From a virus, in the IMG/VR virus record IMGVR_UViG_3300021139_000151, positions 1 to 23,913 of that record: DNA of 23,913 bases, one strand, 5' to 3'. Below are positions 4,049-23,320 of the stretch, piece by piece. The notes beneath the pieces are model-generated. The model was not told the origin of the DNA. It saw nothing but the letters and a program-made list of their open reading frames with translations, and made no database searches. Position 1 is the stretch's first letter, and each line of letters opens with the position of its first letter. The translations under genes were made by a program, and so were the position numbers.

Positions 4049-4405
4049 ATGAGCACTACCATTATCGGGAGACTCACAACCGACCCAGAAATCAAGTTCA
4101 TCAATAACGGCATGGCACTTGTTAACTTTAGTGTTGCCGTTAACCGTAAAAAGGGTGAAGAAGAATACGTTTCTTACTTTGATGTAACTGCTTGGGGCAC
4201 ACTAGCCCAAGGTGTTGCAGACTCACTCCACAAGGGTGACAGAGTTATCGTAAATGGGTTTCTAACTCAAGACCGTTACGAAAACAAGGAAGGCAAGACA
4301 GTGGGCAAGGTTATCCTTAACGCTCAGGCTGTTGGCCCCGACCTACAGTTCGCTACGGCAGAGGTACACTCAGCCAAGAAGAAGGAAGTAGAACCAGCCT
4401 TCTAA
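4049..4405 (+). CDS. ssb: single-stranded DNA-binding protein (SSB)
   Basis: The 118-aa protein is a one-OB-fold SSB: I-I-G-R-L-T-T-D-P-E at about 5-14, V-N-F-S-V-A-V-N-R at 25-33, D-V-T-A-W-G at 45-50, G-D-R-V-I-V-N-G at 63-70, then Y-E-N-K-E-G-K. It binds and protects single-stranded DNA during replication and recombination. The tail is short (E-V-E-P-A-F), still ending in an acidic-Pro-Phe peptide like the host-interacting SSB tip (D-D-I-P-F), although less acidic. The gene follows a candidate promoter and ends in a TAATG overlap with the second WhiB gene, so the two are likely co-translated. Confidence 0.93.
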   Translation: MSTTIIGRLTTDPEIKFINNGMALVNFSVAVNRKKGEEEYVSYFDVTAWGTLAQGVADSLHKGDRVIVNGFLTQDRYENKEGKTVGKVILNAQAVGPDLQFATAEVHSAKKKEVEPAF

Positions 4406-4791
4406 TGGTCGACTGGTCGGAAGCGAAATGTATTGGCATGACCAAACTTTTCTTTGACGACCGCATTAAAAAAATCAACAGAGCGAAATACATCTGTAAG
4501 AACTGCCCAATCAAAACGGAATGTCTTGACTGGGCTTTAGTTCATCGCGAAGCGTGGGGTGTGTGGTCAGGCTTGGACTATCACGAACTAAGAATCGTGG
4601 CTGTCTCACTTGGCTACACACCTCCCAATCGTAAAGAAGTAGAGCATGGCACCGAGCGCGGTTGGGCTTGGCATCGTAGGCAAAAGATGAAAGACAATGG
4701 GCACGAGACTTGCCAGCCGTGCATCGATGCATACAATCAAGCAACCCGCATCCGTGTGGCACGTTACCGCAAAAGAAAAAACAATACTTGA
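4405..4791 (+). CDS. WhiB-family regulator with extra C-terminal zinc-finger-like domain (second copy)
   Basis: Residues 1-60 are a WhiB domain: C9, C31, C34 and C40 (C-x21-C-x2-C-x5-C) plus the canonical turn G-V-W-S-G (52-56). Residues 80-128 add H-G-T-E-R-G-W-A-W-H-R-R and then C103-x2-C106, with a basic end (R-Y-R-K-R-K). This H/C-G-T-x2-G-[YW]-x2-H-x-R...C-x2-C motif is, as I recall, common in small actinophage proteins and probably binds zinc or DNA. The WhiB part should bind a 4Fe-4S cluster and the host sigma factor; the extra domain could give DNA or partner specificity. TAATG coupling to ssb suggests co-expression. It differs strongly from the first WhiB, so it is not a recent duplicate. 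Confidence 0.88.
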   Translation: MVDWSEAKCIGMTKLFFDDRIKKINRAKYICKNCPIKTECLDWALVHREAWGVWSGLDYHELRIVAVSLGYTPPNRKEVEHGTERGWAWHRRQKMKDNGHETCQPCIDAYNQATRIRVARYRKRKNNT

Positions 4792-5329: not shown

Positions 5330-5566
5330 CCGCATCCGCCGCCGCGCTTTTGCCCGTGTTGCAGATCTATGGATTATTTTCGTATCCTATAAAGTCGATG
5401 GATTAGGTCGGATTTAGGCGGCTCGATGGCCGGCCGGTGGTGCTCGATGGGTGCTCGTTCAGGTCATTTAGTTTGGCCGCTATTAATTGCCACGAGGGCC
5501 ACGCTTAATCGCGCTACAATTTCAGCAGCGATACGGGCAGATGACCCGTGCGCGATTGGAGATGCG

Positions 5567-6793
5567 ATGAGTGAGGAACTCTCGATGATTGAAGCCGGCG
5601 ATGAGCCGGTGATGCTGTACGAGTGCGAGCGGTGCGGTTTGGCGTTCGATGACCAATGGGATGTATCGACCGTTCACGGAAGGACTACTCAGTTCGAGTG
5701 GTGCGATGATTGCCGCGAGGTGGACTCGTGGTTTTGCGCTGACTGCGACACGCTGTTCGCGTGCCTCGGTGTTAATGGTCATGGTGTGCCGTCCGTGTGC
5801 GTTAACGAGCACGACTGGGTGTGCGTGGATTGCCGCGACAATAACTACACCTATTGCGAAGGGTGCGACCAGTACCTACTTGACTACTGCGGCTGCGATG
5901 TGGAGGATGACTACGAGGAGGACTGCGGAATTATCTACTCTTACTCGTACAAGCCCGACCCTGTGTTTTGGCCAATTCAGCCGCGCTACTCAGTGCACCA
6001 GGTGGGCCGCTCGTTCTCGTTCTTTAACGATGCCTCTCGTGGTCGTATTCTCGATGAGAACGAACGCCTTCTCGACCGTTCACGCCTCGCGTATTTCGGG
6101 ATTGAACTCGAGGTCGAGGCTCGAGAGGGTGACCGGCTCGAACTCGCGGAGATGATGTCTACGGCGTTCGATAGTTCGGTGCTTTACCTTAAGGAGGACG
6201 GGTCGCTATCTCGTGGCTTCGAGATAGTCACTCATCCTCGGTCGCTCGACTCGTGGCAGCAGTTCGCACCGTCCTTCGGTGCGGCACTGTCGAGACTCGG
6301 TGCGGCTGGTGCTCGTGCGTGGTCGGAGTCATCGTGCGGATTGCACGTGCACGTCTCGCGTGTCGCGTTCAGTGGCCCGTCTCACGTTTCACGCTTTGCG
6401 CTGCTCTATGCACGTAACGAGACTGGGTTCGTGAATGTCGCGCGGCGTTCGTCTGGGTATGCCTCGTTCTCATCGCTGCGCGGTGGTGCTGGCGTGGTGA
6501 CTAAGTGTGCACGCTCGGAGTACGCCTCACACTCGGACGCGGTTAATCTGGGATGGCCTCAGACTGTGGAGGTGCGCATCTGGCGGCCATCGCTGGCGGT
6601 CGGGCGTGTGCTCGCATCGGTCGAGTTCGTTCACGCTTCGATGCAATACACGCGCGGCCTGAATAGTCGAGATGTGGTCGCAGGTGCGCTCGAGTGGGAT
6701 GAGTTCGCTCGTTACGTTCGAGACAATGCCGCCACGTATCCGCACGCGGTTCGTGTGCTCGATGGTGGCACGTTCGAGATGGTGGGTGCGTAA
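5567..6793 (+). CDS. glutamine-synthetase-like amidoligase with cysteine-rich N-terminal domain
   Basis: The frame opens at 5426, but the ATG at 5567 has GGAG five bases upstream and gives a 408-aa protein without the odd leader. Residues 18-120 form a cysteine-rich region with C-x2-C pairs at 20/23, 46/49, 57/60, 86/89 and 97/100, probably several zinc ribbons. Residues 175-360 match the phage/bacterial amidoligase family related to glutamine synthetase (PF12224-type): G-I-E-L-E-V-E (178-184), K-E-D-G-S-L (209-214), F-E-I-V-T-H-P (218-224), C-G-L-H-V-H-V-S-R (257-265) and V-E-V-R-I-W-R (334-340), supplying acidic metal ligands and the nucleotide-binding His/Arg. The family forms amide bonds between a carboxylate and an amine using ATP. 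The following class II glutamine amidotransferase could supply ammonia; this gene pairing is known for the family. The substrate (peptide, wall or protein) is unknown. Confidence 0.85.
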   Translation: MSEELSMIEAGDEPVMLYECERCGLAFDDQWDVSTVHGRTTQFEWCDDCREVDSWFCADCDTLFACLGVNGHGVPSVCVNEHDWVCVDCRDNNYTYCEGCDQYLLDYCGCDVEDDYEEDCGIIYSYSYKPDPVFWPIQPRYSVHQVGRSFSFFNDASRGRILDENERLLDRSRLAYFGIELEVEAREGDRLELAEMMSTAFDSSVLYLKEDGSLSRGFEIVTHPRSLDSWQQFAPSFGAALSRLGAAGARAWSESSCGLHVHVSRVAFSGPSHVSRFALLYARNETGFVNVARRSSGYASFSSLRGGAGVVTKCARSEYASHSDAVNLGWPQTVEVRIWRPSLAVGRVLASVEFVHASMQYTRGLNSRDVVAGALEWDEFARYVRDNAATYPHAVRVLDGGTFEMVGA

Positions 6794-6795
6794 TC

Positions 6796-7605
6796 ATGTG
6801 TCTACTTATCTGTGGCCTCAGTGCCTATGACGTGCCTACTGGCAGCGAACTCGAGCACGCTTGCAGGGCTAATCCTGACGGGTTCGGGTTCTCGGTGCTG
6901 TTTAACAATGAGGCCGGCGTGCGCGATTTATTGACCGTCCGCGGGATGGACTCAGCGGTGATCCGCAGCTCTTTTTTGGAGTCGTTGACCAGGCTGAATG
7001 ACTCAGTCATCGCGTGGATGTTTCATGCTCGCATCGCGACTCATGGTGCGGTGAATGTTGACGGATGTCATCCGTTCGCGGTGGATGGTTCACCTCGCAC
7101 GGTGCTCGGTCACAATGGCGTGCTGCCGGTTCGCATCGCTAAGAACGACTGGCGGTCGGACTCACGAGTGTTTGCTGAGGACTATCTGCCGGCACTCGGT
7201 GGCGTGGCTGCCCTCGGTTCCGCGGTCGTATTCGATGTGCTCGATGGGTTCGTGTCTGGTTCAGGTTCTAAGTGCGTAATTCTCAGTGCTGAGGATGACC
7301 ACGAGCCGGTAACAATTCTCGGTGAGTCGCTCGGACATTGGCGCGGCGATGTGTGGTTCAGTAATAACTCATACAAGCCGTACACGCCGGCATACCGGAT
7401 TATGGGTCAGCCCTACTCGGTATTCGGTGCACTCGATGACTACGACTCGTTCGAGCCGGTCGATGTGTCGATGCTCACGCCATGCATTAACGCTGAGTGT
7501 GAGGCGATGCTCGATGATGAGTGGTGCGATGCGTGCGGCACGTGCCAAGAGTGCTGGCTCGGTTCGTGGGATTGCCAGTGCGACTATGCGGAGGTGATGC
7601 AATGA
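6796..7605 (+). CDS. class II (Ntn-type) glutamine amidotransferase with C-terminal zinc module
   Basis: The 269-aa protein starts two bases after the amidoligase stop. Cys2 follows the initiator Met and is the expected N-terminal nucleophile of class II amidotransferases. Also visible are N-P-D-G-F-G-F (26-32), H-A-R-I-A-T-H-G (77-84, with the substrate Arg), C-H-P-F (91-94), G-H-N-G-V-L (105-110, oxyanion Asn-Gly) and S-D-S-R-V-F (121-126, Asp122), all in family order. It should hydrolyse glutamine to ammonia or carry out a related Ntn amidohydrolase step. Residues 230-262 add eight cysteines (C230, C235, C244, C247, C250, C253, C260, C262), a zinc module resembling the amidoligase N-terminus. 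The two proteins probably act together. A free-standing peptidase role cannot be excluded. Confidence 0.88.
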   Translation: MCLLICGLSAYDVPTGSELEHACRANPDGFGFSVLFNNEAGVRDLLTVRGMDSAVIRSSFLESLTRLNDSVIAWMFHARIATHGAVNVDGCHPFAVDGSPRTVLGHNGVLPVRIAKNDWRSDSRVFAEDYLPALGGVAALGSAVVFDVLDGFVSGSGSKCVILSAEDDHEPVTILGESLGHWRGDVWFSNNSYKPYTPAYRIMGQPYSVFGALDDYDSFEPVDVSMLTPCINAECEAMLDDEWCDACGTCQECWLGSWDCQCDYAEVMQ

Positions 7606-7805
7606 GGGCGAACGATGGCTACTCAGTGCGTACGTGGTGCGGCCTGGTGCTGAGTGTGGTCACGGGCTACGTGGTCGCATTAAAGGTTCACTACGCGGTC
7701 ACGGTGCATTGGTCGATGCCTCACCAGTCCGACCCGTTCGCGTGCATCGTGTGGCTCGTGGTCACGGTGGCACTGGCTCTCGTAGTGGTGGCATGTGATG
7801 AGTGA
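7602..7805 (+). CDS. two-helix membrane protein (67 aa)
   Basis: The ATG at 7602 overlaps the amidotransferase stop (ATGA), preferred over the earlier in-frame start at 7521 inside that gene; GGAGGTG lies just upstream. Two hydrophobic segments, about 11-28 and 46-65, are separated by a short loop with H-Q-S-D-P. A small integral membrane protein is predicted. Its overlap with the amidoligase/amidotransferase pair suggests it belongs to the same system, perhaps anchoring or exporting the product; this is inference. A holin-like fold is also possible from topology alone. Confidence 0.65.
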   Translation: MRANDGYSVRTWCGLVLSVVTGYVVALKVHYAVTVHWSMPHQSDPFACIVWLVVTVALALVVVACDE

Positions 7806-7971
7806 ACTCGACCGTGTAAATAAGGTTTTACGTGCTCAGCATTGTCAGTTGCTCATGGTTCAGATTGACTCCGAGGGCTCGTTCGTTATTCATTTTGACG
7901 CTGAGGCTTCAGGCTGCGGCTATCTATGCATGACCAAGGATGGGGAGGTTCACTACATCCTGCCCGATTAA
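7798..7971 (+). CDS. hypothetical small protein (57 aa), last gene of the island operon
   Basis: The start overlaps the membrane-protein stop by eight bases. The product has a short helix then alternating hydrophobic residues suggesting beta strands (L-L-M-V-Q-I-D...F-V-I-H-F-D...Y-L-C-M-T) and three cysteines (C16, C40, C44). Not recognised. It shares the GC-rich composition and is followed 26 bases later by the intrinsic terminator, so it ends the four-gene island operon. Confidence 0.6.
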   Translation: MSELDRVNKVLRAQHCQLLMVQIDSEGSFVIHFDAEASGCGYLCMTKDGEVHYILPD

Positions 7972-7997
7972 TTCACTACCTATTAGACACGCTAGAG

Positions 7998-8021
7998 AGC
8001 CGGCCTTCGGGCCGGTTTTTT
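7998..8021 (+). terminator. intrinsic terminator after the island operon
   Basis: CCGGCC (8000-8005), loop TTCG (8006-8009), GGCCGG (8010-8015), then six T (8016-8021), extendable by G-U and A-U pairs. A stable UUCG tetraloop on a GC stem with a U-tract is a textbook rho-independent terminator. Confidence 0.92.
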
Positions 8022-8241
8022 AGTGCCTGTAGTTCAGTCCGGATGGCTGGTGCGGCGGCTCTAGGTGCCTTGTAGCGCGGCTGGTGGCAGTGGCCCGATG
8101 ATGGCTCGGTGCTCGATGTGTGGTGCTGGTGGTCATGTGGTGGTGCTGCTGGTGCGGCCTCAGTGGTGCCTAGATTTTGATCTTTGGCATGCTGGTTCAG
8201 TGATGACGTGAGAGATAAGCCCATCCCTCAGCATCCCTTAT

Positions 8242-8269
8242 TCGTGCGTATAGGTACCAATACTAACGA
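8242..8269. promoter_or_regulatory. 28-bp imperfect palindrome centred on GGTACC
   Basis: TCGTGCGTAT (8242-8251) and ATACTAACGA (8260-8269) are inverted with 8 of 10 matches around AGGTACCA. It lies 9 bases before the LexA box. Its size and symmetry suit an operator for a dimeric repressor. Confidence 0.5.
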
Positions 8270-8278
8270 GTAAGTAGG

Positions 8279-8292
8279 CGAACAAGTGTTCG
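8279..8292. promoter_or_regulatory. LexA (SOS) box
   Basis: CGAACAAGTGTTCG is a perfect match to the Gram-positive/actinobacterial LexA operator CGAACRNRYGTTCG, with arms CGAACA and TGTTCG around AG. It should be bound by host LexA and released on DNA damage. The controlled transcript is uncertain: nearest candidate promoter begins 65 bases downstream on the + strand. Confidence 0.75.
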
Positions 8293-8356
8293 TATTTGAC
8301 CGGATGTGTGCCGAGGGGGGTGCCTCTGCGTAAAAGTGTATCTCAAAAACGGTGAA

Positions 8357-8385
8357 CTGTCATTCTCATCACCAGTGTTTATAAG
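8357..8385 (+). promoter_or_regulatory. candidate promoter downstream of the LexA box
   Basis: CTGTCA (8357-8362), 17-base spacer, TATAAG (8380-8385), matching the consensus at 4/6 and 5/6. It would read toward the small genes at 8865 and 8986. Confidence 0.35.
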
Positions 8386-8415
8386 GGTTTTGGTACATAT
8401 GCTGTAAAAAAGCGC

Positions 8416-8442
8416 GTTTGATTTCGCGGAGAGAAATCGAAC
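8416..8442. other. 10-bp hairpin in the non-coding region
   Basis: GTTTGATTTC (8416-8425) pairs with GAAATCGAAC (8433-8442) with one G-U, loop GCGGAGA. A6 runs flank it: on the - strand the structure is followed by GCGC and T6, so it could end - strand transcripts; on the + strand AAAAAAC follows. Confidence 0.5.
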
Positions 8443-8864
8443 AAAAAACTTTTCAAACCGATCAGGTGAGAACCCTCATTATTCTTTCTTAATCCCCCTT
8501 AAAAGCACTATCTTTAATACTCAGGCTTTGCTTACAGGTATCCCCGCATCACCTAACCAAAAAAGAAAGACTTAAGTATCTTAAATGGGACATCCACCCG
8601 TCATGAACACGAGGCTTGTCCGATGCGTTTAGAAGTACTTGGACATTTCACCAATGGCTTATGGTGCGTGTTCGACCGAATACCGCTCTAACCGGCTAAC
8701 TCCGGCGAGTATCTTACGTACAGGGCATTTACATGCATGGCAGTAAGACTCACACTCCGGGGGGACTTGCACCCACGACTACTCACATCGGTAGTACATA
8801 CAGGATACCACACTTTGCGCAACATGTTACGCACCCTGGTGTCTACTATGTGTATGCTTGGTGT

Positions 8865-8978
8865 ATGTGTTCTACCTGTGGCTGCGGCCGACCTAAAGAC
8901 AAGCACGGCGAAAAGACTATTGCTGCTGCCAATAAGAAGTATTCTAAAGTAAAGCCTAAAGCAAAGAAAAAGAAGTAA
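8865..8978 (+). CDS. small cysteine/lysine-rich protein (37 aa)
   Basis: The frame is open from 8733, but the protein-like part begins at the ATG at 8865: M-C-S-T-C-G-C-G followed by K-D-K-H-G and a lysine-rich tail (K-x-K-P-K-A-K-K-K-K). Short proteins starting M-C-S-T-C-G-C with a basic tail exist in actinobacteria and phages, as I recall. Three clustered cysteines may bind metal, and the tail suggests nucleic-acid contact. No clear Shine-Dalgarno precedes the start, so translation may be leaderless or begin upstream at 8733 (81 aa). Confidence 0.5.
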   Translation: MCSTCGCGRPKDKHGEKTIAAANKKYSKVKPKAKKKK

Positions 8979-8985
8979 CTACCCC

Positions 8986-9138
8986 GTGTTTCTTGTACCC
9001 AAGATTTTGCGAGACACAGACCCTTCTACTTGGCTTTTTAATCCCAAATACAGACGCAGGGTGCGCCGTCGACGTAGAGGTATTACGATCACCGTTAACG
9101 GCCAGGACTGGCAAGCATGGGTAGAGTCCCAGCGCTAG
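8986..9138 (+). CDS. small arginine-rich protein (50 aa)
   Basis: The GTG start lies 7 bases after the previous stop, without a strong ribosome site. The product has W-L-F-N-P-K-Y followed by R-R-R-V-R-R-R-R-R-G and then I-T-I-T-V-N-G-Q-D-W-Q-A-W-V-E. The arginine cluster would bind DNA or RNA, and the end looks like a compact beta hairpin plus helix. Not recognised. Protein-like composition and position after another basic microprotein support it, but the start is uncertain. Confidence 0.45.
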   Translation: MFLVPKILRDTDPSTWLFNPKYRRRVRRRRRGITITVNGQDWQAWVESQR

Positions 9139-9177
9139 TCCAGGCTTTGCACCTTGGTGCGAATTTTAAAATTTTTT

Positions 9178-9207
9178 TTGACTTCCGCCATAGATGTGTG
9201 CTAAGAT
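9178..9207 (+). promoter_or_regulatory. candidate promoter of the virion operon
   Basis: TTGACT (9178-9183), 18-base spacer, TAAGAT (9202-9207) with TG one base upstream (TGCTAAGAT, extended -10). An AT-rich stretch of A and T runs just upstream could act as UP element. It would start at about 9214, giving an 88-base leader before the first gene. Confidence 0.6.
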
Positions 9208-9212
9208 AAAAG

Positions 9213-9236
9213 AGTAGTTCGGACAGGCTACTTTTT
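9213..9236 (+). terminator. short leader hairpin with U-tract
   Basis: AGTAG (9213-9217) and CTACT (9228-9232), loop 10, run into T5 (9232-9236). It begins at the predicted transcription start. Weak alone, but U-tract position fits a small attenuator or pause site. Confidence 0.35.
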
Positions 9237-9248
9237 CACCCTCCTTCC

Positions 9249-9285
9249 GAGAATCCCCCTGGTTGCATAACTGGGGGGATTTCTC
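9249..9285 (+). terminator. long leader hairpin (attenuator or terminator) before the virion genes
   Basis: AATCCCCCTGGTT (9252-9264), loop GCAT, AACTGGGGGGATT (9269-9281): 13 pairs including two G-U, extendable by three pairs around a bulged T. Only AUUUCUC follows, a poor U-tract. It lies between the promoter and the first gene, so may be an imperfect terminator or a stabilising 5' structure. Confidence 0.65.
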
Positions 9286-9301
9286 ATGCTATGATTAAAG
9301 C

Positions 9302-11736: not shown

Positions 11737-13635
11737 ATGCCTGTTTCTTTTGATAACGATAAGGCCGCAGGTCAGATTGTCCAAATGTACCAAGAGCGAC
11801 GCTCTCACCGCAGTGGACAATTTAGACGCATGCAGGAAATACGTGACCACTACAACGGTGACGTAATTGTTCCATTGCCTGAGTTAGACGAAGCAGAGAA
11901 GCCAGCAATTCCTAACTTGATTGCTCAAGGTATTGATGCGTTCGCTATGCGAGTGGCATCAGTGCTACCAGACATTCAGTACCCTGCACTTCGCCCAGGA
12001 ATCCAGTCTTCAGAAAACCGTTCTCGTGACCGTCGCCTAGCCAACATTGGTTGGTGGGATATGAACCGTATGGGAACCAAGTTGCGCCGCCGCGCACGTC
12101 ACCTTACTGCTTACGGTATGAGTGCTGTATCTCTTTCTCCAGTTTCTCTTGATCCATCAGACAACCGCAAGATTCCACACTGGCGCGTACGTAACCCACT
12201 CGCTACCTACCCATCGCCAATGATTGACCCAGACAACATGGAACCACAGGATTGCATCTTTGCAGACCGTCGTCCCCTTGGCTGGATGAAAATGCATTAC
12301 CCACAACAGACTTCTGTCTTGTACAAGGGTGACAAAACTGACACAGACATGTTTGAGATTCTTGAGTACCTAGATGCTGCTGAGACTGTTCTTGTAGCCG
12401 TTGGTGCTGAAAAACAAAAGAACCAAGGTTTTACACAGGAAACAGGAAAGGGTGTTGCTACACACATTATCCTTGAGCGTATCCCTAACCGTGCAGAAGT
12501 TTGTCCAGTAGTTATCGCTGGACGTATTACGCTTGACCGTCTACAAGGTCAATTTGACCAAATGCTTGGTATGTACCAGCGCGAAGCAAAACTAGACGCA
12601 CTAAACACAATTGCAGTATTCCGCAACGTATTCCCAGACGAATGGGTTGTATCTCCTGCTAACGCTCCGACCAGCCCACGTATTGTTCAAGAGGCTGACG
12701 GCAAGATGGGTATCCGAGGTATTTTGGACAAAGGACAGATTCAGATTGTCCACCCACAGCAAACACAAGATACACCGATGGCGCTGGACCGCCTTGAGCG
12801 AGCACAGCGACTTACGGCTGGTATTCCTGCCGAATTTGGGGGCGAGTCTGGCTCTAACATTCGCACCGCCCGACGTGGGGCTTCAGTCCTGTCTAGTGCA
12901 GTTGACATGCCACTCCAGGAATACCAGGAAATCTTCTCACAGTCAATGGAACTGGAGAACATGCGTGCAGTTCAGATCATGAAGTCATACTACGGAAACA
13001 AGCCAAGTATGTTCTTTATGGGTGGCGATGGCAAAGTTGTTAGCGAAGACTACACACCAAACGAAACATTCGAAACACACTTTAGTTACGTTAAGTACCC
13101 GATGCCTGGCTCAGACATTAATGCCATGATTGTTTCAATTGGTCAACGTGTTGGTATGGGAATCATGTCTAACGAAACTGCTCGTACTATGGACCCTGCA
13201 ATTGAAGACCCTACATTAGAAGCAGACCGTGTTGAGATTGAAGGATTACGCAAAGCACTCCTAACCGGTCTTGAACAACAAGCCGCTCAGGGTTCACTTG
13301 ACCCATCTATCATTGCTAGAATTGCAAAGATGAAAGCACAACGTCACGTATCGCTCGAAGATGCAGTTGCAAAGATTCACGAAGAAATGCAAGCCGAGCA
13401 AGCACAAAAGGCTCAAGCAATGCAGCAACAGCAGCAAGGCCAAGCACCAGGACCAGAGGCACAACCAGGAATGGGTTTGTCTCCAGAAAACCCAATGCAA
13501 GGCGGAGCACCAGCACCACAAGGTAAGCCAGACCTATCAGCACTTCTTGGTGCGTTAGGTGGGGGCGGAGCACCAGGTGGGGCACCAGGCGGACCAGTAG
13601 CACAAGCACCAGCACCAGCACCAGCAGGAGTGTAA
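11737..13635 (+). CDS. portal protein
   Basis: Position three bases after terminase, length 632 aa and content (early M-Y-Q-E-R-R region, a basic DNA-facing middle, a long helical stretch at about 330-560) support portal: the dodecameric ring at the capsid vertex through which DNA passes. Residues 540-632 form a low-complexity tail: a Q-rich run (Q-Q-Q-Q-Q-G-Q) and then Pro/Ala/Gly repeats (A-P-G-G, A-P-A-P), encoded by short CCAGGN/GCACCA DNA repeats. A disordered tail of this kind is unusual; it could contact the internal proteins encoded next. Identification is mainly by gene order and size. Confidence 0.82.
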   Translation: MPVSFDNDKAAGQIVQMYQERRSHRSGQFRRMQEIRDHYNGDVIVPLPELDEAEKPAIPNLIAQGIDAFAMRVASVLPDIQYPALRPGIQSSENRSRDRRLANIGWWDMNRMGTKLRRRARHLTAYGMSAVSLSPVSLDPSDNRKIPHWRVRNPLATYPSPMIDPDNMEPQDCIFADRRPLGWMKMHYPQQTSVLYKGDKTDTDMFEILEYLDAAETVLVAVGAEKQKNQGFTQETGKGVATHIILERIPNRAEVCPVVIAGRITLDRLQGQFDQMLGMYQREAKLDALNTIAVFRNVFPDEWVVSPANAPTSPRIVQEADGKMGIRGILDKGQIQIVHPQQTQDTPMALDRLERAQRLTAGIPAEFGGESGSNIRTARRGASVLSSAVDMPLQEYQEIFSQSMELENMRAVQIMKSYYGNKPSMFFMGGDGKVVSEDYTPNETFETHFSYVKYPMPGSDINAMIVSIGQRVGMGIMSNETARTMDPAIEDPTLEADRVEIEGLRKALLTGLEQQAAQGSLDPSIIARIAKMKAQRHVSLEDAVAKIHEEMQAEQAQKAQAMQQQQQGQAPGPEAQPGMGLSPENPMQGGAPAPQGKPDLSALLGALGGGGAPGGAPGGPVAQAPAPAPAGV

Positions 13636-13638
13636 TAC

Positions 13639-14061
13639 ATGCCAAGAACAGGTAAGGGCGGTTCACGCCAAGGTACGCCAGGTCAAGCATACGGAAACCG
13701 TACAGATCTGAACATGCCAATGAGTACAGTACCAAATCAAGAGTATGGCAAAGCCGCAGCGCAAAAGGCTGCACAAGCCGCAGTGCCAATGGGTGCTTCA
13801 CCAGTTGCACAGCCAGCACCAAGCATGCCAATCCCAAGTGGCAATGTTCCAACACCAGGTTCTATGAACTTTCTTGGTGCAACAGAACGACCAATGGAAC
13901 CAGTACAAGCAGGTCTACCTTCAGGCCCAGGAGCAGGTCCAGAAGCCATAGGTATGCCACGTAATACAATTTCAAACGCATTACAAAATCTTTTGCGTGA
14001 CCCTAACGCAAATTCAGGTACATACGAATTGGCCGCCACTGCTAGAGCCTTTGGACTCTAA
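13639..14061 (+). CDS. Pro/Ala-rich virion-associated protein (140 aa)
   Basis: It starts three bases after the portal stop and ends in a TAATG overlap with the giant gene. The N-terminus G-G-S-R-Q-G-T-P-G-Q-A-Y-G-N-R-T-D-L-N looks conserved, as small actinophage proteins after portal often carry a similar P-G-x-x-Y-x-N-R-T-D-L peptide (from memory). The middle is disordered (Pro, Ala, Met, Gly), and the end has a helix (N-T-I-S-N-A-L-Q-N-L-L-R). Composition is like the portal tail, hinting at shared interaction. Function unknown; probably a head-completion or internal protein. Confidence 0.7.
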   Translation: MPRTGKGGSRQGTPGQAYGNRTDLNMPMSTVPNQEYGKAAAQKAAQAAVPMGASPVAQPAPSMPIPSGNVPTPGSMNFLGATERPMEPVQAGLPSGPGAGPEAIGMPRNTISNALQNLLRDPNANSGTYELAATARAFGL

Positions 14062-17000
14062 TGCCTTCGATTAATACTACAGAAATACTTGGCAAGCCTA
14101 ATACACAAGGCATTGCTGGTTTAATTGAAACTAACCTCCAAGGAGCCATCAAAGGCTACTCTGGTGAAAACGCTGACCAGCAAGCAAGAATTTTAGCGTA
14201 TTACAAGAATAACCCTAATGCAATGAACAACCCTGCTCAGGTGTATGGTCTTGCTACTTCGTTGAGACAAGATCCTCACACTATTACTCAGGCGTTGAAA
14301 TACCTTTCGTTATACAACGAAGGAACAAAGCACATTTACGAACAAGCCAATGGCAGCAACCTAGGCCATCAAATTTGGCACGGCATTACTTCTGTTGGTA
14401 ACACTATTTGGGATTCACTTACAAGTGGAGAAAACTGGAAAAACGCTTTTGCTCGTCCAGTAATGAAATACGTTAATTTTTGGACACAAGGTGACGTTGG
14501 ACAAAAAATAATTAATGCAGACGTAAGCGGCGCTAAAGGTGCTGCCGATGCCGTTGTCGGACTTGGAAAAGTAAGTAGCAATGTTCTTAATAGGGTTGAT
14601 ACAACTCTTGCAGAACTTGTTGGTGCACAAGGTATTAACGGATACAAAGATGCTTGGCGAACAGTTAACAATTTTGCACAAGCGCCTATTAATTTAATTA
14701 ACCCATTTAGTGACCAAAATGGCTATCAACTGATGGCTCACACTATGGCATACTACGAATCTCTTGCCAATCAAAAAGGATGGGCATACGCTCTGGGTCA
14801 CATGCTTCCAAGCATCGCCGCTATGTACGCAAGTGATGGATTCTTAGCACCTGGTATTGCTGGCGAAACAGGAACAAGCGAGTACTTGTCTGCAATGTCC
14901 GAAGCGGAACAAGCATTAGCCAAGGGTGAAAAACTAACTGTTGAACAGAAAAAGTTAATTGACGCATCTCCAAAAGTTAAAGAATTAGAACGACAAGCAA
15001 AAATGGAAGGGCCACGAGGTCCTGTTGCAAACATAGCGGACAAAGTTTCTACTCCTTTGGGCGGTATTGCAAGACTTGCAAAGATGGCTGGCAAGCCAAT
15101 GACAGATGTCAAGTTAAATGCTCTTTACTTGCTTAACCAAGAAACAGCAAAAATAGAACACCATCAATTGTGGGAAGACACCAAGGGTGGTGTAGTAATT
15201 GGTTCGGATGGCAAACCTAAAGATTTAGGTCGCCAGACACTTGAATACTTTGGCATGAATCCAACAGGTGCTTTCTTTGACACCACATCAGGTCTTTTTG
15301 ACATTTACACAAAGTACCTTGGAGCGGACCCACTAGGTGCTGCTGGTAAAGTATTTGCCGCTGCACGTTCATTTGAAGGTCTATCACCACGTCTTGCTGA
15401 CTTCTTAGAGACAACACGCAAATCATTGTTTGACATGAAGGGCAACAGAATTACTGGTGCACAATTTAAAAACGATGCACTACTTGGCCAATCGTACGGA
15501 CGTGCCGCTGGAAAACTGAATCAAATGATGGGTGGCCTAAGTATTTGGTTCCGTGGTCTTGGTATCCACAACGCGGGCGATATCTATGCAACATCAAGAT
15601 TAGCCAACGTTGCTACTTCGTATCAATATATGGCAACGCACACTGGTTCTGAAATTGCTCGTGCCTACCGTGGTGTGTATTCAGATAAGGCTATTAAATT
15701 GCTTGACAAAGCCAAAACGTTTAACGATGTGGTTGACGTTCACGCAATGCTTGCTGATGGCTACGGTATGGTGCACGACGTTGCTCCAACGCTAGGCATG
15801 TATGGCAAGATTAAGACTGTTCTTGTTGATGCAAACAAAGTCATGGACGACATGGCTATTTCTGCAATTCTCAATGAAGACATGCCTGTACTTAAGCGTT
15901 GGACCAAAGCGTTCAAGGAACGTGGCTATGATGCAACTCCGGACAGCGCAATGTTTATTGCCTCTGCAAAAGCTGACCTTCGTTGGCGCACAATCTTTAG
16001 ACGTTGGTGTTTTACTCAGTTAAGTAAATCGCCAATGTACTACAGCGAAGTTTTGCAACGCATGGAAACCCATTCTATTGTTCCTGGTGACTACAACGCT
16101 ATTGCCGCTATTCAAGACATGGCACGCGGTGCGTTTGTACCAGAACGAGAAGTAGTTGCAATGGGCGACACTTTGTACGCAACCTCTACACCAGAAGATT
16201 ACGTTACCGCTTACCGCAATTGTCTTTACAACATTGTAATGCGTAATGCTACTGCCGGTATGAGACAGACAGAACTTGACTCAGTATCAAAGATGGTAGA
16301 AAACCACATTTGGGATGAAGTTGTACGCATGACTGGTCTTGATGGTGGTGGTGCGTTAAAGCGTGTTTATACTGCCGGTCCTAACGGTTATGAACTATCT
16401 AAACTTGTAGATGCAGAAGGTAAAGAGTTTACCGCTGCAAACGGTACTCAGCAACTTGGTCACTTAAAGATGCCTCTTGCTAAAGACATTAGAAACCTGT
16501 CTCGCACAATTCGTAATGAAATTACCAAGGTAACCCCAGACACTCGAAACATTCACGACTTCACTGCTTGGGATAACGAGATTCGTTCTATTGCCACAGA
16601 ACGCGGTTTGTTAAAAAATGAAGTTAGCAAATATGGTAAAGAAATTGCTAAGTACCGTTCAAAAGGTTTTAAGGACTCTAAGGGTTACGAAGTACTTAGT
16701 GAGCGTGGTATTAAATCTTACGATAAAACAGTTGAAGAAATTGACAAACTTGCTAACGCTACCTATGCAACTCCAGATTTAGGTCAAGAATTTACTAATT
16801 TCTACAACACCCTTCACACTAAATACAAAGATGTTGCACAGCAAATTGAAGACCACAAAGCCGCCATGGAAGAACTTGCTCATCGTAGGGCAAACCCTGC
16901 AATGGAGTTTGATACTCCTGCACCCAAGCCATTGTCGCCACAACACGTTGAATCTCTAAAGGGTCAACTGCACGCATACAACGATCACCTGATGTCTGCC

Positions 17001-20000
17001 AACCTTCTTCTTAACCCAGAACAAATTGTCAAAGAAGAACAAGCAATGCTATGGGCAAGAGAACAAGCAGGCATGTTTGGTCCTGGCGATGTTGCTAAAA
17101 CAAAGATTGCGGAACGTTTTAAGAACAACCTTGACGAAATTAAAAAAGACCGCCCTAACTACAGAAGCAATTTTCAAGTTGTAGTTGACGGACTTAACAG
17201 AACACTAAGCCTTGTATTCGTACCATTGGCGCTTCTTTCTGGCCGTTGGGCAATGCACGTAGGTTTGTCAGAAGGTGCCCTTAACGCTTTCCGCCAAGGC
17301 CCATTTAAGTTGTTTGAACAATCACTTGCTAAATCTATTGCTAAGCACGAACTTAACGGTATTCCACTTGCCGAGGGTGGGCTTCGCGACAAGCAAGTAA
17401 GCCTTCTTCGTGACGTAGTTGCTGGAACAATTATGGGCATGGAAAGCAGTGTCCTTAGAGCAATGAATCCTGAAAAGGCTGACCGTCTTATTGGTGATGC
17501 TGTATCACTACACCTTCGCCACGATGGATGGAAGGGTGGGGTTCACGGTAACGATACCGTTATGCCCGACATGCCTGGAAAGACGGAAGACATATTTACC
17601 ATTAATGGTGAAGGAACAGTATCTCAAGGAAAAGCAGTTCGCACTGACGACATGAGAGTTTTAAACCCAAACACAAGTGGGTACTCAACTGCTTTGTCTG
17701 AGTGGGCAAACATGATTACTAACGACAAGATTTTTGCTCCTGTTGCAAAAGAACTACACGAAAAAATTGTTGTTGAAGGACATGAATTCTGGGGTACGCG
17801 AGGCAGCGACACTTGGCGCAAAGACATTGCAGATAATCTTTTGCCAGCAGCGCGTAAGGCTATTAATGATTTAACACCAGAAGAAGCCGCTCGCATGCGT
17901 CAATTTGATGGCATCAACGCTAACCCAAACCTTTCTTCAATGAGTATGGAAGACCGTGAATTGCTTAAGGTGCAACGTGAGGCTGAAACCGGACGTGCAG
18001 AAGCACTTCAGTCAATGTCACCAGACCTTCGTTACATTCAAGATTCAATTGACAAGTTCCATGGATCAGGTGGAAAAATTGAATCGTTCCCAAGCGGTAA
18101 AACATCACCAGCAGATTTGGCTAAATTAGAAAAAGACTTTGCTCCTCTTAAACAATTTGAACAAGAATGGCGAGCAAGTAAAAAAACATGGGACCCTGAA
18201 AGTGGTACGTCTGAAGGACGTAGAGCAGGTGTTATTAACGCTGCCTTTGAACTTCATCGTGATAAAGGTCTTAATCTTTTAGTAGCAAGAGATTCAGAAG
18301 GTAAAATCACTGGTGCTTTGTCTTGGTACGAGACTGGTTCAATTCATGTTCAAACCGTTGGTTCTTTGGGTGGCGGTGCTGGTGCCGCATTGGAGCACGA
18401 ACTTGCAACACAAATTGTTGAAAAGTATGGTTATGGCGTTAAGCATAGGTATGACATTGAATTTGGATCATGGCCTTACCACGAAAAAACAGGCAAAATA
18501 CCAACTGCTAATTGGGAAGGCAAAACATCAGAAGCGATGTTTAGCGCTGAGCAAATTGAAAAGATTGCTGCTCTTAAGCCAATGCCATCAGCACTTGGTA
18601 TGTCTGCTGACGAAAAGTTCCGTCTTGCTTCTAAAGAAGATGCCGCACGTCGTGCTGTAGAAAACATCATGGGTACATTTTTTGGAACTGCTGGTTCTGA
18701 AGGACACGTACTTCACACAGAACTTCTTGACCACGTTGTTTCAGGTACAGTTCCAGGGCCAAAAGAAATGACTGAATTGATTGCTCGCATGGGTGATTCA
18801 GCACCTCGTGACATTCCTGCACGTGGATTAGAGGGCATTAGTAGTTTGGGTGGATTTGCCAAGACTGTTATTAGCCGAGTTTCTGAACAAGGTCACGATA
18901 AGATTCTTGGACCAATGGTTAACTGGTTGGTTCGTAAGCCAGTGTACCTTGGTGATTACCACAGGGAAATGGAAATATTGCGTCCATTGATTAACAACGG
19001 AACGCTTCACGAAGCACAAGCAGAAATTATTGCAGAAAACAAGGCTCTTATGCGTATGAGTCGTTTTGTCCACAACCCTAAAGATAAGACGATGTTTGAA
19101 ACAAACATGCGTGTTGTTGCTCCGTTCTACTTCGCTAAAAACCAAGCATGGCGACGTGCTTTCCGTTTGGCCAAAACAGATCCAGGTGCAGTTGAAAAGT
19201 ACATGAAGTTATGCCTTGCTGTTACTGACTACATCTCGACAACATCTGATAAGAGTGCAATCCCAGGTACTCACATTCCTGGTACAGAATTTATAGGTAA
19301 TATTGCTGGGCTTAACCCGTTGTTCAACACTGCTGCTGGTTTTGGAAAAATGGCATTTGGTCTGACAGGTAGTGCCGGTTCAGTTACATCTATTGTTCCA
19401 ACAGGTGACCAGATGGGATTTGGAAACATGCTTGGTGAATTTATTCGCCCACCATGGGGACCGCTTATTACTGTCCCTGCCAAATGGATTCGTGACTACA
19501 CAGCCGCTAACCACTCACCAGTTGCACAAAAATGGATTAATGGATTCCTTGGTAAGGCATCTTCATACTCCTCTTGGACACGAGATGTATTGCCGTCTGG
19601 AACATTACAAGACGTATTGGAATTAGGAGCAGGTATGTTTAACATGCCTAACTCAACCATTCAGTCAACTGAAAATCAAATGCTTAACAATGCCGTAGAC
19701 AACCTATTTGCTCAACAACGCAAGATTGTAGAAAAAGAATATGACTACACTGGCATGACTCAAGCACAGCGTGACATGATGGTTCGTGGTCTTACCGACC
19801 AGGCCGTAAGTAACATTCTTAACAACCCTGAACAACGCCAAGCGTTCCTTGACCGTGCTAAGCAAGGCGCAATGATGATGTCGTTTGTTAAAACAGTACT
19901 TAACTTCTTTAGTCCTTTGGCGCTTAGTCTTAATGCAACGTTCTCAAAGCAGCCTGAGTTTGACAAAATTCTTGCTGAAAAGAATCCAGATGGAACACCT

Positions 20001-20774
20001 AAGTACACAACAATTGAAGCGGCTGACATCTTTGCTCAAAAGTTTCCAGACAACATTACTGACCTTATTTCTCACACAAAGTCAACGTACTCTAATTTCC
20101 CTGAAACCCAAAGTGCTGTTGACTTGTTAACAAATAACCCTGGAACAGTGCGAGACTACCCGTATGGTTCTGCAATGCTTGTGAATCGTAGTTCAAACTA
20201 TTCACCACAGGCATACCAGTTAGAATTGTCTATGAATCTTCGTAGTCGTGAAGCACCTAGTGAATATCTAAGTTCTGCACTATACGGTATTGGTAATGAC
20301 TATTACTACAATTTCCTAAAGCCTGAGATTATGGCTATACCTGGTGCTACCGAGCAAGTAATGATGCGTCTTGCCGATGGTTCTTCCAAAGCAACAACAG
20401 AACTTAATTACAATGGTTTTAAGCAATTGGCTGCAATGGCTAAGTCATACGGTGATACCACTAACCCAATTTGGTACGACCAATTTACAGGTGCGGCAAA
20501 AAAGAATGTTGCCAACAAGGCTCTTGAAGATATGACCAAGATGATTAAAGACCCTAACGTTACTGCTATTTCTCAAGACGACAAAGATAAGTTTCAAGGT
20601 CTTATAGATCAGTACAATGGTTTCCTAAAGGCTTACCGTAATCTAACTGGTGGCGGTGCATCGGCCTTGTCTAATTCATGGTATGCCTTCTGTGAGGATG
20701 CAGCGGCATCTGAATATTACGCAAATCAATCATATTTTATTAAATCAGTTCTACAGGCAATGCCTAACAAGTAA
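14061..20774 (+). CDS. giant internal/ejected virion protein (2237 aa), polyvalent type, with GNAT-like segment
   Basis: One uninterrupted frame encodes 2237 residues between the portal and scaffold genes. Most is helical and charged, with a hydrophobic stretch at about 1048-1065 (T-L-S-L-V-F-V-P-L-A-L-L). About 1365-1500 resembles a GNAT acetyltransferase fold: L-L-V-A-R-D-S-E-G-K-I-T-G-A-L-S-W (near 1404-1420), then V-G-S-L-G-G-G-A-G (near 1433), like the acetyl-CoA pyrophosphate loop, and an E-x-x-L helix. About 1665-1720 has M-R-V-V-A-P-F-Y-F-A-K-N-Q, similar to C-terminal domains of phage large polyvalent proteins (LPD38-like). Such proteins are packaged and ejected with DNA, and can carry enzymes acting early in infection. 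Position argues against a tail tape measure. No RNA-polymerase or transglycosylase motif was recognised. Function of the rest is unknown. Confidence 0.75.
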   Translation: MPSINTTEILGKPNTQGIAGLIETNLQGAIKGYSGENADQQARILAYYKNNPNAMNNPAQVYGLATSLRQDPHTITQALKYLSLYNEGTKHIYEQANGSNLGHQIWHGITSVGNTIWDSLTSGENWKNAFARPVMKYVNFWTQGDVGQKIINADVSGAKGAADAVVGLGKVSSNVLNRVDTTLAELVGAQGINGYKDAWRTVNNFAQAPINLINPFSDQNGYQLMAHTMAYYESLANQKGWAYALGHMLPSIAAMYASDGFLAPGIAGETGTSEYLSAMSEAEQALAKGEKLTVEQKKLIDASPKVKELERQAKMEGPRGPVANIADKVSTPLGGIARLAKMAGKPMTDVKLNALYLLNQETAKIEHHQLWEDTKGGVVIGSDGKPKDLGRQTLEYFGMNPTGAFFDTTSGLFDIYTKYLGADPLGAAGKVFAAARSFEGLSPRLADFLETTRKSLFDMKGNRITGAQFKNDALLGQSYGRAAGKLNQMMGGLSIWFRGLGIHNAGDIYATSRLANVATSYQYMATHTGSEIARAYRGVYSDKAIKLLDKAKTFNDVVDVHAMLADGYGMVHDVAPTLGMYGKIKTVLVDANKVMDDMAISAILNEDMPVLKRWTKAFKERGYDATPDSAMFIASAKADLRWRTIFRRWCFTQLSKSPMYYSEVLQRMETHSIVPGDYNAIAAIQDMARGAFVPEREVVAMGDTLYATSTPEDYVTAYRNCLYNIVMRNATAGMRQTELDSVSKMVENHIWDEVVRMTGLDGGGALKRVYTAGPNGYELSKLVDAEGKEFTAANGTQQLGHLKMPLAKDIRNLSRTIRNEITKVTPDTRNIHDFTAWDNEIRSIATERGLLKNEVSKYGKEIAKYRSKGFKDSKGYEVLSERGIKSYDKTVEEIDKLANATYATPDLGQEFTNFYNTLHTKYKDVAQQIEDHKAAMEELAHRRANPAMEFDTPAPKPLSPQHVESLKGQLHAYNDHLMSANLLLNPEQIVKEEQAMLWAREQAGMFGPGDVAKTKIAERFKNNLDEIKKDRPNYRSNFQVVVDGLNRTLSLVFVPLALLSGRWAMHVGLSEGALNAFRQGPFKLFEQSLAKSIAKHELNGIPLAEGGLRDKQVSLLRDVVAGTIMGMESSVLRAMNPEKADRLIGDAVSLHLRHDGWKGGVHGNDTVMPDMPGKTEDIFTINGEGTVSQGKAVRTDDMRVLNPNTSGYSTALSEWANMITNDKIFAPVAKELHEKIVVEGHEFWGTRGSDTWRKDIADNLLPAARKAINDLTPEEAARMRQFDGINANPNLSSMSMEDRELLKVQREAETGRAEALQSMSPDLRYIQDSIDKFHGSGGKIESFPSGKTSPADLAKLEKDFAPLKQFEQEWRASKKTWDPESGTSEGRRAGVINAAFELHRDKGLNLLVARDSEGKITGALSWYETGSIHVQTVGSLGGGAGAALEHELATQIVEKYGYGVKHRYDIEFGSWPYHEKTGKIPTANWEGKTSEAMFSAEQIEKIAALKPMPSALGMSADEKFRLASKEDAARRAVENIMGTFFGTAGSEGHVLHTELLDHVVSGTVPGPKEMTELIARMGDSAPRDIPARGLEGISSLGGFAKTVISRVSEQGHDKILGPMVNWLVRKPVYLGDYHREMEILRPLINNGTLHEAQAEIIAENKALMRMSRFVHNPKDKTMFETNMRVVAPFYFAKNQAWRRAFRLAKTDPGAVEKYMKLCLAVTDYISTTSDKSAIPGTHIPGTEFIGNIAGLNPLFNTAAGFGKMAFGLTGSAGSVTSIVPTGDQMGFGNMLGEFIRPPWGPLITVPAKWIRDYTAANHSPVAQKWINGFLGKASSYSSWTRDVLPSGTLQDVLELGAGMFNMPNSTIQSTENQMLNNAVDNLFAQQRKIVEKEYDYTGMTQAQRDMMVRGLTDQAVSNILNNPEQRQAFLDRAKQGAMMMSFVKTVLNFFSPLALSLNATFSKQPEFDKILAEKNPDGTPKYTTIEAADIFAQKFPDNITDLISHTKSTYSNFPETQSAVDLLTNNPGTVRDYPYGSAMLVNRSSNYSPQAYQLELSMNLRSREAPSEYLSSALYGIGNDYYYNFLKPEIMAIPGATEQVMMRLADGSSKATTELNYNGFKQLAAMAKSYGDTTNPIWYDQFTGAAKKNVANKALEDMTKMIKDPNVTAISQDDKDKFQGLIDQYNGFLKAYRNLTGGGASALSNSWYAFCEDAAASEYYANQSYFIKSVLQAMPNK

Positions 20775-20782
20775 GGAATAAA

Positions 20783-21289
20783 ATGCCAGAAACAACCCCC
20801 CAAGTAGAAAAAGTACCGACAATGAATGACATGGCTAACATGGCGCAACTATACGCCGTGCCAATGTCAGAAGGAGCACTTCAGGCAATAGCCAAAGATG
20901 CTACACCTGAAAAGGCTAAGGCTTTCGAGGAGCACGTAAAGACCACTGCACAGGGCCTATATCCCTCTCTAGCGCCACAGATTGCTGCTGGTATACCTAC
21001 GGCCCACCTTCTTGATCCGTACCGCCAGGTGGCTAAGCAAATGCTTGGAGAAAGTTTTGAGCCTGACTTTATTGCTGACCCTAAATCGGCTGCTGCTTTG
21101 GCTGGCAGGATAGATGAAAAAACAGGACGGCCTACTCTTATGAGCCTAGACCAATGGAAACAACACATTAAGTCCCACCCTGGATTTGGATGGGATACTA
21201 CGCCTGCTGCCCACGAACAAATTGGTCAGGTTATTAAAGCACTACATGAATCATTTACTCAACCACCACAGCAAGGAGCGATGCAATAA
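20783..21289 (+). CDS. hypothetical virion protein (168 aa)
   Basis: It begins eight bases after the giant gene, with AAGGAAT as ribosome site, and its stop overlaps the next start (TAATG). The N-terminus is disordered; residues 75-160 look structured, with L-L-D-P-Y-R-Q-V-A-K, D-P-K-S-A-A-A-L, M-S-L-D-Q-W-K-Q-H and P-G-F-G-W-D-T-T-P-A-A. This W/D-rich peptide also feels familiar from actinophage head proteins, but I cannot name a family. The short Pro/Gln tail recalls the portal tail. Probably a head-internal or ejection protein acting with the giant protein. Confidence 0.75.
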   Translation: MPETTPQVEKVPTMNDMANMAQLYAVPMSEGALQAIAKDATPEKAKAFEEHVKTTAQGLYPSLAPQIAAGIPTAHLLDPYRQVAKQMLGESFEPDFIADPKSAAALAGRIDEKTGRPTLMSLDQWKQHIKSHPGFGWDTTPAAHEQIGQVIKALHESFTQPPQQGAMQ

Positions 21290-22659
21290 TGGGAACAACA
21301 CCTCCACCAATTAGTTTTAATACATATTCAGCAGCAGGTTCAGCATTGCCTATGTTCATCCCAAATGCGGATGTTCTTATTAACCAATTTGGTTTTACCA
21401 AAGCAGAATTAAACACCAAGGCAGGTAAAGCGTTTGTTAACAGTCAAATTGTTACAGGCGCAAAAGGTGGTTCCCCAGACAGTTCTACATGGAAAACAGC
21501 CATGGATTACATGTCAACAAAATACCCTGGTCTTTGGTCTAAATTAACGTCTTGGGCAAATGTTCCTAGTGCAGTTGGTGCGCCACATTACACCACTGCG
21601 TCAATGGACTTGTACACTGCTTTGCAATCACAAGGTGGAGACTTTAGTGGTCTTACCAAAGACATTGTTTATGGCGGTAAAAGTTCTTCTTCGGCTGTTG
21701 TTGTAGCGGGGCCTAACGGTCTTGCTACTAGCAATGCTTCAGCAGGTTCCCAGGCTAGTGCTTACGGAACAATGCTTAACTATCTTGACTCATGGGGCAT
21801 GGGCAATTTGATGCCTACTATCCAAAAGATGATTACGGCTCAGGGCGATAACTTAACTAATACACAAGAGTTATTGAACTATGTTCGCAATACTGCTGAA
21901 TACAAGCAAAACTTCCCTGGTCTTACCGAGCGCAATGCCAGCCTTGGGCCAGGTGCAGAGCACATGACAGAAGCCCAGTACCAACAGTATGTGACTACCG
22001 TACAGGGCCTTACAGGTCTTTATGGCCTTCCTGAAGGAACAATAACCAAGGCGGCAATTGGTGACTTGATTAAGAACAACGTGTCAACTACGGAACTTGA
22101 GTCCAGGATTAATAAGGGATACGTGGCTTACAACAACGCTGACCAGAACGTTAAGAACCTTTTGGCTCAGGAATACGGGCTTACCCCAGGACAAGGCGTT
22201 GCTTACTTTCTTAATCCAACGGCAGCACAGGCAACTATTGAAAAGAACATTGCTGCTGCAACTATCCAGGGTTATGCTCAGGGCATAGGTCTTAAGGGTA
22301 TGAGTCAGGCTGGAGCAGAGCAGTTGGCAGGAATGGTCAAGATGGCAGGTACGGCAGCCAGCACAGGTGGAGCCGCCGACCCATACGCCGCTTACAGCAT
22401 GTCTCAACTCCGTTCAGACCTAGCCACAGCAGCAAGAGATGTTCAACTTACGGTTGCCGCACCAGGTTCAGGCCGCTCTACAGTAACCACTAATCAACTT
22501 ATAGGTTCTCAAATTGCCGGCTATGCCGGTACAAATCAGGCCGCTGAACAGGTTCAGGTAGCCCGTGCTGAACAAGCCGCAGCCGCCCCGTTTGAAAAGG
22601 GTGGTGGATACGTTGAAAACGCTAAGGGGGTTGTAGGGCTTGGTAGCGCTAGGACGTAA
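21289..22659 (+). CDS. Ala/Gly-rich virion protein (456 aa)
   Basis: The start overlaps the previous stop as TAATG. The sequence is rich in Ala, Gly, Thr and Gln, with many predicted helices and few charges: I-P-N-A-D-V-L-I-N-Q-F-G-F near the N-terminus, repeated Y-x(2-3)-Y aromatic pairs in the middle, and long Ala/Gln helices at about 320-440. No signal peptide or enzyme motif is seen. Size and position before scaffold and capsid suggest an internal virion or ejection protein. An alternative is a minor capsid protein. Confidence 0.72.
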   Translation: MGTTPPPISFNTYSAAGSALPMFIPNADVLINQFGFTKAELNTKAGKAFVNSQIVTGAKGGSPDSSTWKTAMDYMSTKYPGLWSKLTSWANVPSAVGAPHYTTASMDLYTALQSQGGDFSGLTKDIVYGGKSSSSAVVVAGPNGLATSNASAGSQASAYGTMLNYLDSWGMGNLMPTIQKMITAQGDNLTNTQELLNYVRNTAEYKQNFPGLTERNASLGPGAEHMTEAQYQQYVTTVQGLTGLYGLPEGTITKAAIGDLIKNNVSTTELESRINKGYVAYNNADQNVKNLLAQEYGLTPGQGVAYFLNPTAAQATIEKNIAAATIQGYAQGIGLKGMSQAGAEQLAGMVKMAGTAASTGGAADPYAAYSMSQLRSDLATAARDVQLTVAAPGSGRSTVTTNQLIGSQIAGYAGTNQAAEQVQVARAEQAAAAPFEKGGGYVENAKGVVGLGSART

Positions 22660-22834: not shown

Positions 22835-23320
22835 ATGGCAGAATTTGAAGATTACGAAGACGAGATTGAAGTTGAGCGTCAACCGCTAGACCCGAACATT
22901 CGGAAGCAGTTGCGTGAAGCAGAAAAGGCTCGTAAGGAATTAGACGGTCTTAAGGCAGAACTAGAAGCGCAAAAGCGTGAAGTTCAGTTTTCTAAGGCAG
23001 GGATTCCGGATTCAGGTATTGGTTCATTATTCCGTAAGGCGTATGACGGTGAAACTTCTCAGGAAGCAATCCGAGCAGCGGCTGAAGAGTATGGAATTTT
23101 AAAATCTGAATCTATCGAAGATACTTCAAGTAATGCAGAATTAGATGCTCTACGCAGGACGCAAGGTGCAACTGTAGGTAATTCTGGCGCAATGCCAGAC
23201 CCACAGCAAATGTACCTTGAAGCACTTGCCGCAGCGTCTACTCCTGATGAAGTCATGCGAGTCGTTGAAGGAGACACCGGGTCAAAACTGGGTGTCTACT
23301 CTTCTCGTGGGTCGTTCTAA
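22835..23320 (+). CDS. capsid scaffolding protein
   Basis: The 161-aa product is highly charged. An acidic N-terminus (E-F-E-D-Y-E-D-E-I-E-V-E) leads into a coiled coil at about 25-52 (E-K-A-R-K-E-L-D-G-L-K-A-E-L-E-A-Q-K), then a helical C-terminal half. This composition, small size and placement 41 bases before the major capsid gene are typical of phage scaffolds, which direct procapsid assembly and then leave. The C-terminus (E-A-L-A-A-A-S-T-P-D-E-V-M-R-V-V) could bind the capsid protein. AAGGAG precedes the start. It is under a structured leader, suggesting regulated translation. Confidence 0.82.
   Translation: MAEFEDYEDEIEVERQPLDPNIRKQLREAEKARKELDGLKAELEAQKREVQFSKAGIPDSGIGSLFRKAYDGETSQEAIRAAAEEYGILKSESIEDTSSNAELDALRRTQGATVGNSGAMPDPQQMYLEALAAASTPDEVMRVVEGDTGSKLGVYSSRGSF

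Follow-up and report, generated by a model that had tools for sequence, protein, structure and literature searches.

A giant gene among the packaging and head genes

The window analysed here is the whole of a linear virus record of 23.9 kb (23,913 nucleotides). An open reading frame on its plus strand runs from an ATG at position 14061 to a stop at position 20774, with zero internal stops, and encodes a protein of 2237 residues, hereafter the giant (Table 1). The ATG overlaps the stop codon of the preceding gene (TAATG). The giant recurs full-length in two related contigs (L002 and L003), most of it at 96-100% identity, and partially in two others (L004 and L005). Moreover, a syntenic giant ORF was found in about 75 non-redundant related contigs. 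Therefore, it is not a chance ORF. The coordinates and length that a first-pass annotation had given for it are confirmed.

In order, terminase (starting at 9814) and portal are followed by a 140-aa gene, the giant, two genes of 168 and 456 aa, a scaffold-like gene and capsid (23362). The giant sits in the packaging and head-gene region of a portal-terminase phage and, as had been proposed, between portal and scaffold, with one gene intervening before it and two after. Also in agreement with the first-pass annotation, which saw no recognised domain over most of the length, searches of the giant against Pfam, PHROG and NCBIfam gave zero matches. Neither the giant nor its GNAT segment had a usable match among PDB sequences.

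Table 1. Features of the giant gene and its neighbourhood (window coordinates; residues are those of the giant)
Feature	Position	Strand	Description and basis
Portal protein	11737..13635	+	phrog_104, 5e-10; profile match to Immanuel3 portal
140-aa partner gene	13639..14061	+	homologue of Immanuel3 gp07; phrog_8200; profile
Giant protein gene	14061..20774	+	2237 aa; synteny and conservation in ~75 contigs
Block N	14061..15395	+	residues 1-445; jackhmmer mapping, 75 giants
Block M1	15528..16640	+	residues 490-860; block mapping
Site A	16641..16937	+	residues 861-959; short in the window
Block M2	16938..17795	+	residues 960-1245; includes site B near residue 1111
Site C and cargo	17808..18626	+	residues 1250-1522; the site as mapped over the giants spans 1246-1522
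GNAT-fold domain	18075..18539	+	residues ~1339-1493 (b1 to b7); AlphaFold2, Foldseek, VIA-align
Candidate acetyl-CoA loop L-G-G-G-A-G	18366..18383	+	residues 1436-1441, between b4 and a3; alignment and model
Tyr1473-His1474	18477..18482	+	a4 position where many GNATs place the catalytic Tyr; alignment and model
C-terminal core (block C)	18627..20771	+	residues 1523-2237; most strongly conserved region of the giants
Site D			near residues 1642-1659, within the C-terminal core
168-aa gene	20783..21289	+	its domain forms the C-terminal tail of gp11 (peptidase) and of gp12 (glycosylase) in Immanuel3; profile
456-aa gene	21289..22659	+	homologue of Immanuel3 gp13; phrog_8424; profile
Scaffold-like gene	22835-23320		phrog_7813, 7e-17; capsid gene next

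A family of giants in actinobacterial podoviruses

Related giants were gathered by terminase-based and core-based IMG/VR scans, the core-based scan using a close subset of rows. The 75 non-redundant giants have the C-terminal core in common; some are truncated by contig ends, and full-length members measure 1539-3610 aa. The Beephvirinae, podoviruses of Streptomyces, belong to the family (Immanuel3 gp09, 1648 aa; Abafar_00008). Abafar, a Beephvirinae relative, shows podovirus morphology with a very short tail (PMC11536984). All 29 isolate records of the family are annotated as 'hypothetical protein'. The family phrog_10618, of unknown function, was matched by 20 of 29 core rows. The window giant does not reach phrog_10618 directly; the homology of its C-terminal core, seen with jackhmmer and profiles, and the kept gene order place it in this family of actinobacterial podoviruses. 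A limited search of the open-access literature returned no paper describing these giants.

The host, a freshwater bacterium, is probably an actinobacterium. This affiliation is indicated by a WhiB-like transcriptional regulator at window positions 4405-4791 (phrog_12112, 5e-17) and by an Acidimicrobiaceae MAG, one contig of which carries the same block of genes; that contig could be misbinned and is a weak clue alone. Elsewhere in the window, an Amidoligase_2 gene (1e-4) adjoins a class-II glutamine amidotransferase-like gene (GATase_4, 1e-3; phrog_25883) at 5426-7605, possibly forming a pair for peptide or metabolite modification. An HslV-family peptidase-like phage gene lies at 1225-1707 (phrog_1040, 2e-8). 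About 1.5 kb just upstream of the packaging genes (7806-9301) contains no convincing gene, tRNA, Rfam match or repeat.

Conserved blocks and sites that carry cargo

Four blocks of the window giant (N, M1, M2 and C) were mapped by jackhmmer over the 75 giants. Closer relatives keep all of them, and in distant members C only, or C with parts of the rest, is recognisable. The large length differences among giants map to four sites (A to D) lying between or inside the blocks. At site C, for instance, many relatives have a spacing of about 70-110 aa; in the window it is 273 aa, and it extends to 1621 aa in the kinase-bearing L128. Four relatives (L009, L011, L013 and L017) are without the window's insert between residues ~1254 (1323 in L009) and 1522. 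Site A carries an ADP-ribosyltransferase (ART) in L113 and in L136/L017, ParB in L126, NADAR and DUF4326 with a possible GNAT in L121, and a module homologous to the GNAT segment of the window in L143 and L108. The same module occupies site B in L118/L120.

The Pfam assignments behind these contents are ADPrib_exo_Tox in L113 (1e-13), as well as in L157 (1.6e-11), L046 and L044; DUF3990 in L136 and L017; a PI3_PI4/HipA-like kinase in L125 (4e-7) and L128; and ParB_N in L126 (2e-7). Block C is the only recognisable block in L044 and L046, and their cargo is not assigned to sites. In L121, a 1073-aa insert of a 3033-aa giant (locus positions 5708-8926) has NADAR (1e-25) adjoining DUF4326 (3e-32), the possible GNAT coming after; the NADAR and DUF4326 pair is perhaps a counter to ADP-ribosylation defences. 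Many inserts of sister giants gave no convincing Pfam match. Those of L159 (6530-9943), L124 (7910-9949) and L123 (7409-9463), of 680-1138 aa, are possible new effector domains.

The first-pass annotation had described a single embedded GNAT-like domain. The block map widens this picture to a scaffold in which exchangeable cargo is inserted at several sites.

The insert at site C is predicted to adopt a GNAT fold

Residues 1318-1515 were modelled with AlphaFold2 using 7 homologous segments (pLDDT 83.2, pTM 0.84; lower confidence in the C-terminal part of the module). The modelled order of secondary structures, b1-a1-a2-b2-b3-b4-a3-b5-a4-b6-b7, is the GNAT topology. Foldseek against the PDB gave 35 matches at E<=1e-3, to GNAT-fold acetyltransferases, with AtaT and TacT at ranks 2-6. 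With VIA-align, the best match was AtaT (Z 10.9, 140 residues, rmsd 3.3 A); the nine top matches (Z 10.2-10.9) were AtaT, TacT or KacT structures or an unnamed bacterial toxin, and other GNATs scored 9.9 and below. Several viral structural matches are likewise annotated as acetyltransferase or NAT_SF. According to the model, the segment 1350-1500 thus has a GNAT fold. The GNAT-like region had earlier been placed at about 1365-1500; the fold is upheld, and the modelled boundaries shift to about 1339-1493. For residues 1350-1520, where an unrelated fold would have spoken against the proposal, the predicted structure has GNAT topology.

The GNAT was not detected by sequence in Pfam, PDB-sequence or PHROG searches. 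A match of the segment to the PRP22 helicase (E 0.017) was rejected because it is at odds with the confident GNAT model. An earlier AlphaFold model built from 3 near-identical sequences (pLDDT 51), whose Foldseek list was GNAT-rich but not significant, was discarded as proof.

Conserved motifs and the question of catalysis

In a seven-row alignment of the module, the G-A pair of the candidate acetyl-CoA loop is invariant (7/7) and G-x-G is present in 6/7; the R/Q position of the canonical R/Q-x-x-G-x-G/A motif shows no conservation. The His of the Tyr-His motif is found in all seven rows, the Tyr being replaced by Phe in L108. From its position in the model, we infer a catalytic role for Tyr1473-His1474. 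When the window is compared with L002, the CoA half of the module (residues 1397-1515) has a dN/dS of about 0.13 (0.024/0.189), consistent with constraint on this half.

These observations bear on the alternative that survives best, namely that the giant is ejected as a pilot or tunnel protein, with a GNAT-fold insert that is catalytically dead and either serves as a structural or binding module for partner recognition or is a tolerated passenger. GNAT folds can have non-catalytic roles, and the absence of the R/Q from the loop would fit such a module, as would the sharp difference in the a1-a2 segment between near-identical phages described below. However, the loop glycines and the His of the Tyr-His motif are kept down to about 25% identity, the CoA half appears to be under purifying selection, and the inserts of sister giants are enzyme families. 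We consider a dead module unlikely, at perhaps one chance in five.

The module is found at different sites in related phages

Homologues of the module occur in L143 (residues 866-1043, site A), L118/L120 (1294-1557, site B), L108 (site A) and L117, as compared to site C in the window; the possible GNAT of L121 is a weak call. In this analysis, metagenomic contigs are the sole source of the module and its homologues, and sequence-pattern searches for further relatives returned only those already known. On a tree of the core the bearers are scattered, with 6 changes at the fewest for 6 scored bearers including the weak L121 (a quick tree without bootstrap, in which gain and loss are indistinguishable). 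Compared with L143, the window is 54.5% identical over the module and 33-42% identical over the four blocks, which suggests that the module has been exchanged between phages.

Between the window and L002, dS is 0.26 in the module, about ten times the value in the C and M2 blocks (near 0.02). It is raised in the M1 block too (0.14), and therefore recombination was not restricted to the module. By its GC content (0.43), the insert does not stand out as foreign. Within the module, window positions 18141-18248 (residues 1361-1396, a1-a2 of the GNAT) are replaced with respect to L002 and L005, with 63% nucleotide identity and 16 more residues in L002 and L005, the phages being otherwise nearly identical.

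A proposed carrier of enzymes into the host cell

Gene order, a short-tailed isolated relative and the host-conflict enzymes of sister giants lead us to favour the view that the giant is ejected and carries host-directed domains. We put at roughly 60% the probability that the giant is an ejected virion protein of a short-tailed Actinomycetota phage, with a scaffold that carries exchangeable enzymes and a GNAT at site C that acts on the host at entry. The scaffold, made of blocks N, M1, M2 and C, would be packaged in the head near the portal and would leave the particle with the DNA. The sites between or inside the blocks would accept interchangeable enzyme modules. The GNAT-fold domain of site C may then enter the cytoplasm together with the first DNA, so that a host target would be acetylated ahead of phage gene expression; a protein, or a part of the transcription or translation machinery, is the most plausible target. 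T4 Alt likewise enters the cell with the phage DNA as enzyme cargo.

Ejection is favoured by the place of the giant among head genes, which is the same in Beephvirinae, and by the domain of the downstream 168-aa gene, which is fused to cell-wall hydrolases in these phages. Counting against it, only one weak hydrophobic stretch was found in the giant. By sequence, the core showed no homology to T7 gp16 or to any other PDB chain; its identification as a homologue of a solved ejection protein is unsupported at this level.

A second alternative would make the giant a head or tail structural component that is not ejected, its inserts being decorations or neutral passengers at loops. It gains from the facts that the virion location is deduced from gene order and that no ejection-protein homology was detected, but the inserts are repeatedly host-conflict enzyme families and the domain of the neighbouring gene is tied to cell-wall hydrolases in relatives, so that we regard this alternative as improbable, somewhat more so than a dead module. 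The least probable alternative, that the module is related to the tRNA-acetylating toxins AtaT, TacT and KacT and, once delivered by the phage, stops host translation by acetylating aminoacyl-tRNA, draws on the toxins among the top VIA and Foldseek matches, but a gap of about 1 in Z amounts to a tie, other GNATs score within 1-2 Z, sequence identity to the toxins is 7-18% and a fold match says nothing on the substrate.

Returning to the ejected carrier, a broader proposal can be made, tentatively and at a little less than even odds: short-tailed actinobacterial phages would share an ejection scaffold in which acetyltransferase, ADP-ribosyltransferase, kinase, NADAR and ParB domains are swapped at defined sites, forming an interchangeable effector-delivery platform used at entry.

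Comparison with known systems

Among GNAT acetyltransferases, the nearest by structure are AtaT, TacT and KacT, with which the module shares fold and topology. In contrast to these, it is embedded in a 2237-aa protein, has no sequence-level match and is without the R/Q of the acetyl-CoA loop. Within the family, Immanuel3 gp09 and Abafar_00008 share a homologous C-terminal core and the gene order with the window giant; Immanuel3 gp09, however, is shorter, and Pfam finds no enzyme cargo in it.

Rac, of phiKMV-like phages, is a GNAT that acts on the alpha subunit of host RNA polymerase during infection and can redirect the polymerase, in the passage of PMC7824862 that cites it. Like Rac, the window module has a GNAT fold and is encoded by a phage, and an action on the host is proposed for it too. 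Rac is however a stand-alone protein, whereas the window GNAT is embedded.

As with T7 gp16 and podovirus ejection proteins, among which mosaic domain exchange is known (PMC8954989), the giant lies in a head-gene block with hydrolase-linked neighbour domains. The window family differs in being larger and in having host-directed enzyme domains; PDB and Pfam searches of the window giant found neither sequence homology to T7 gp16-type proteins nor a transglycosylase.

There is a parallel in content with phage polyvalent proteins (Iyer et al. 2017, PMC5512222). These are large, are encoded near head genes and bring together unrelated enzyme domains, among which ART, kinase, GNAT and ParB are named, and they are predicted to act at entry. 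Cargo enzymes brought into the cell with the DNA have been proposed for them (PMC5512222; PMC9503650). The window giant is also large and in a head-gene block, and its family has cargo of the same kinds. Polyvalent marker domains (LPDs, ART-PolyVal) had no Pfam match in the window giant, with a weak ART-PolyVal in L136 (0.13); it is therefore described as polyvalent-like and not classed as a polyvalent member. Its GNAT is not linked by sequence to either of the two polyvalent GNAT families (PMC5512222). It has one recognised cargo domain, and L121 has NADAR, DUF4326 and a possible GNAT.

That phage virion proteins can carry ART, kinase, GNAT and ParB domains as cargo was already known. What this analysis adds is the family of scaffolds, with cargo sites at fixed places, and the occurrence of one module at different sites in related phages. 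Beephvirinae isolates growing on Streptomyces offer a place where ejection of the scaffold can be examined, giving a testable function to a family that isolate records leave without one. Polyvalent effectors have been described as varied multidomain proteins; here, one family-specific scaffold is found in dozens of phages with cargo changed at four defined sites, a natural domain-swap experiment in which sister phages, set side by side, can reveal the host systems targeted at entry.
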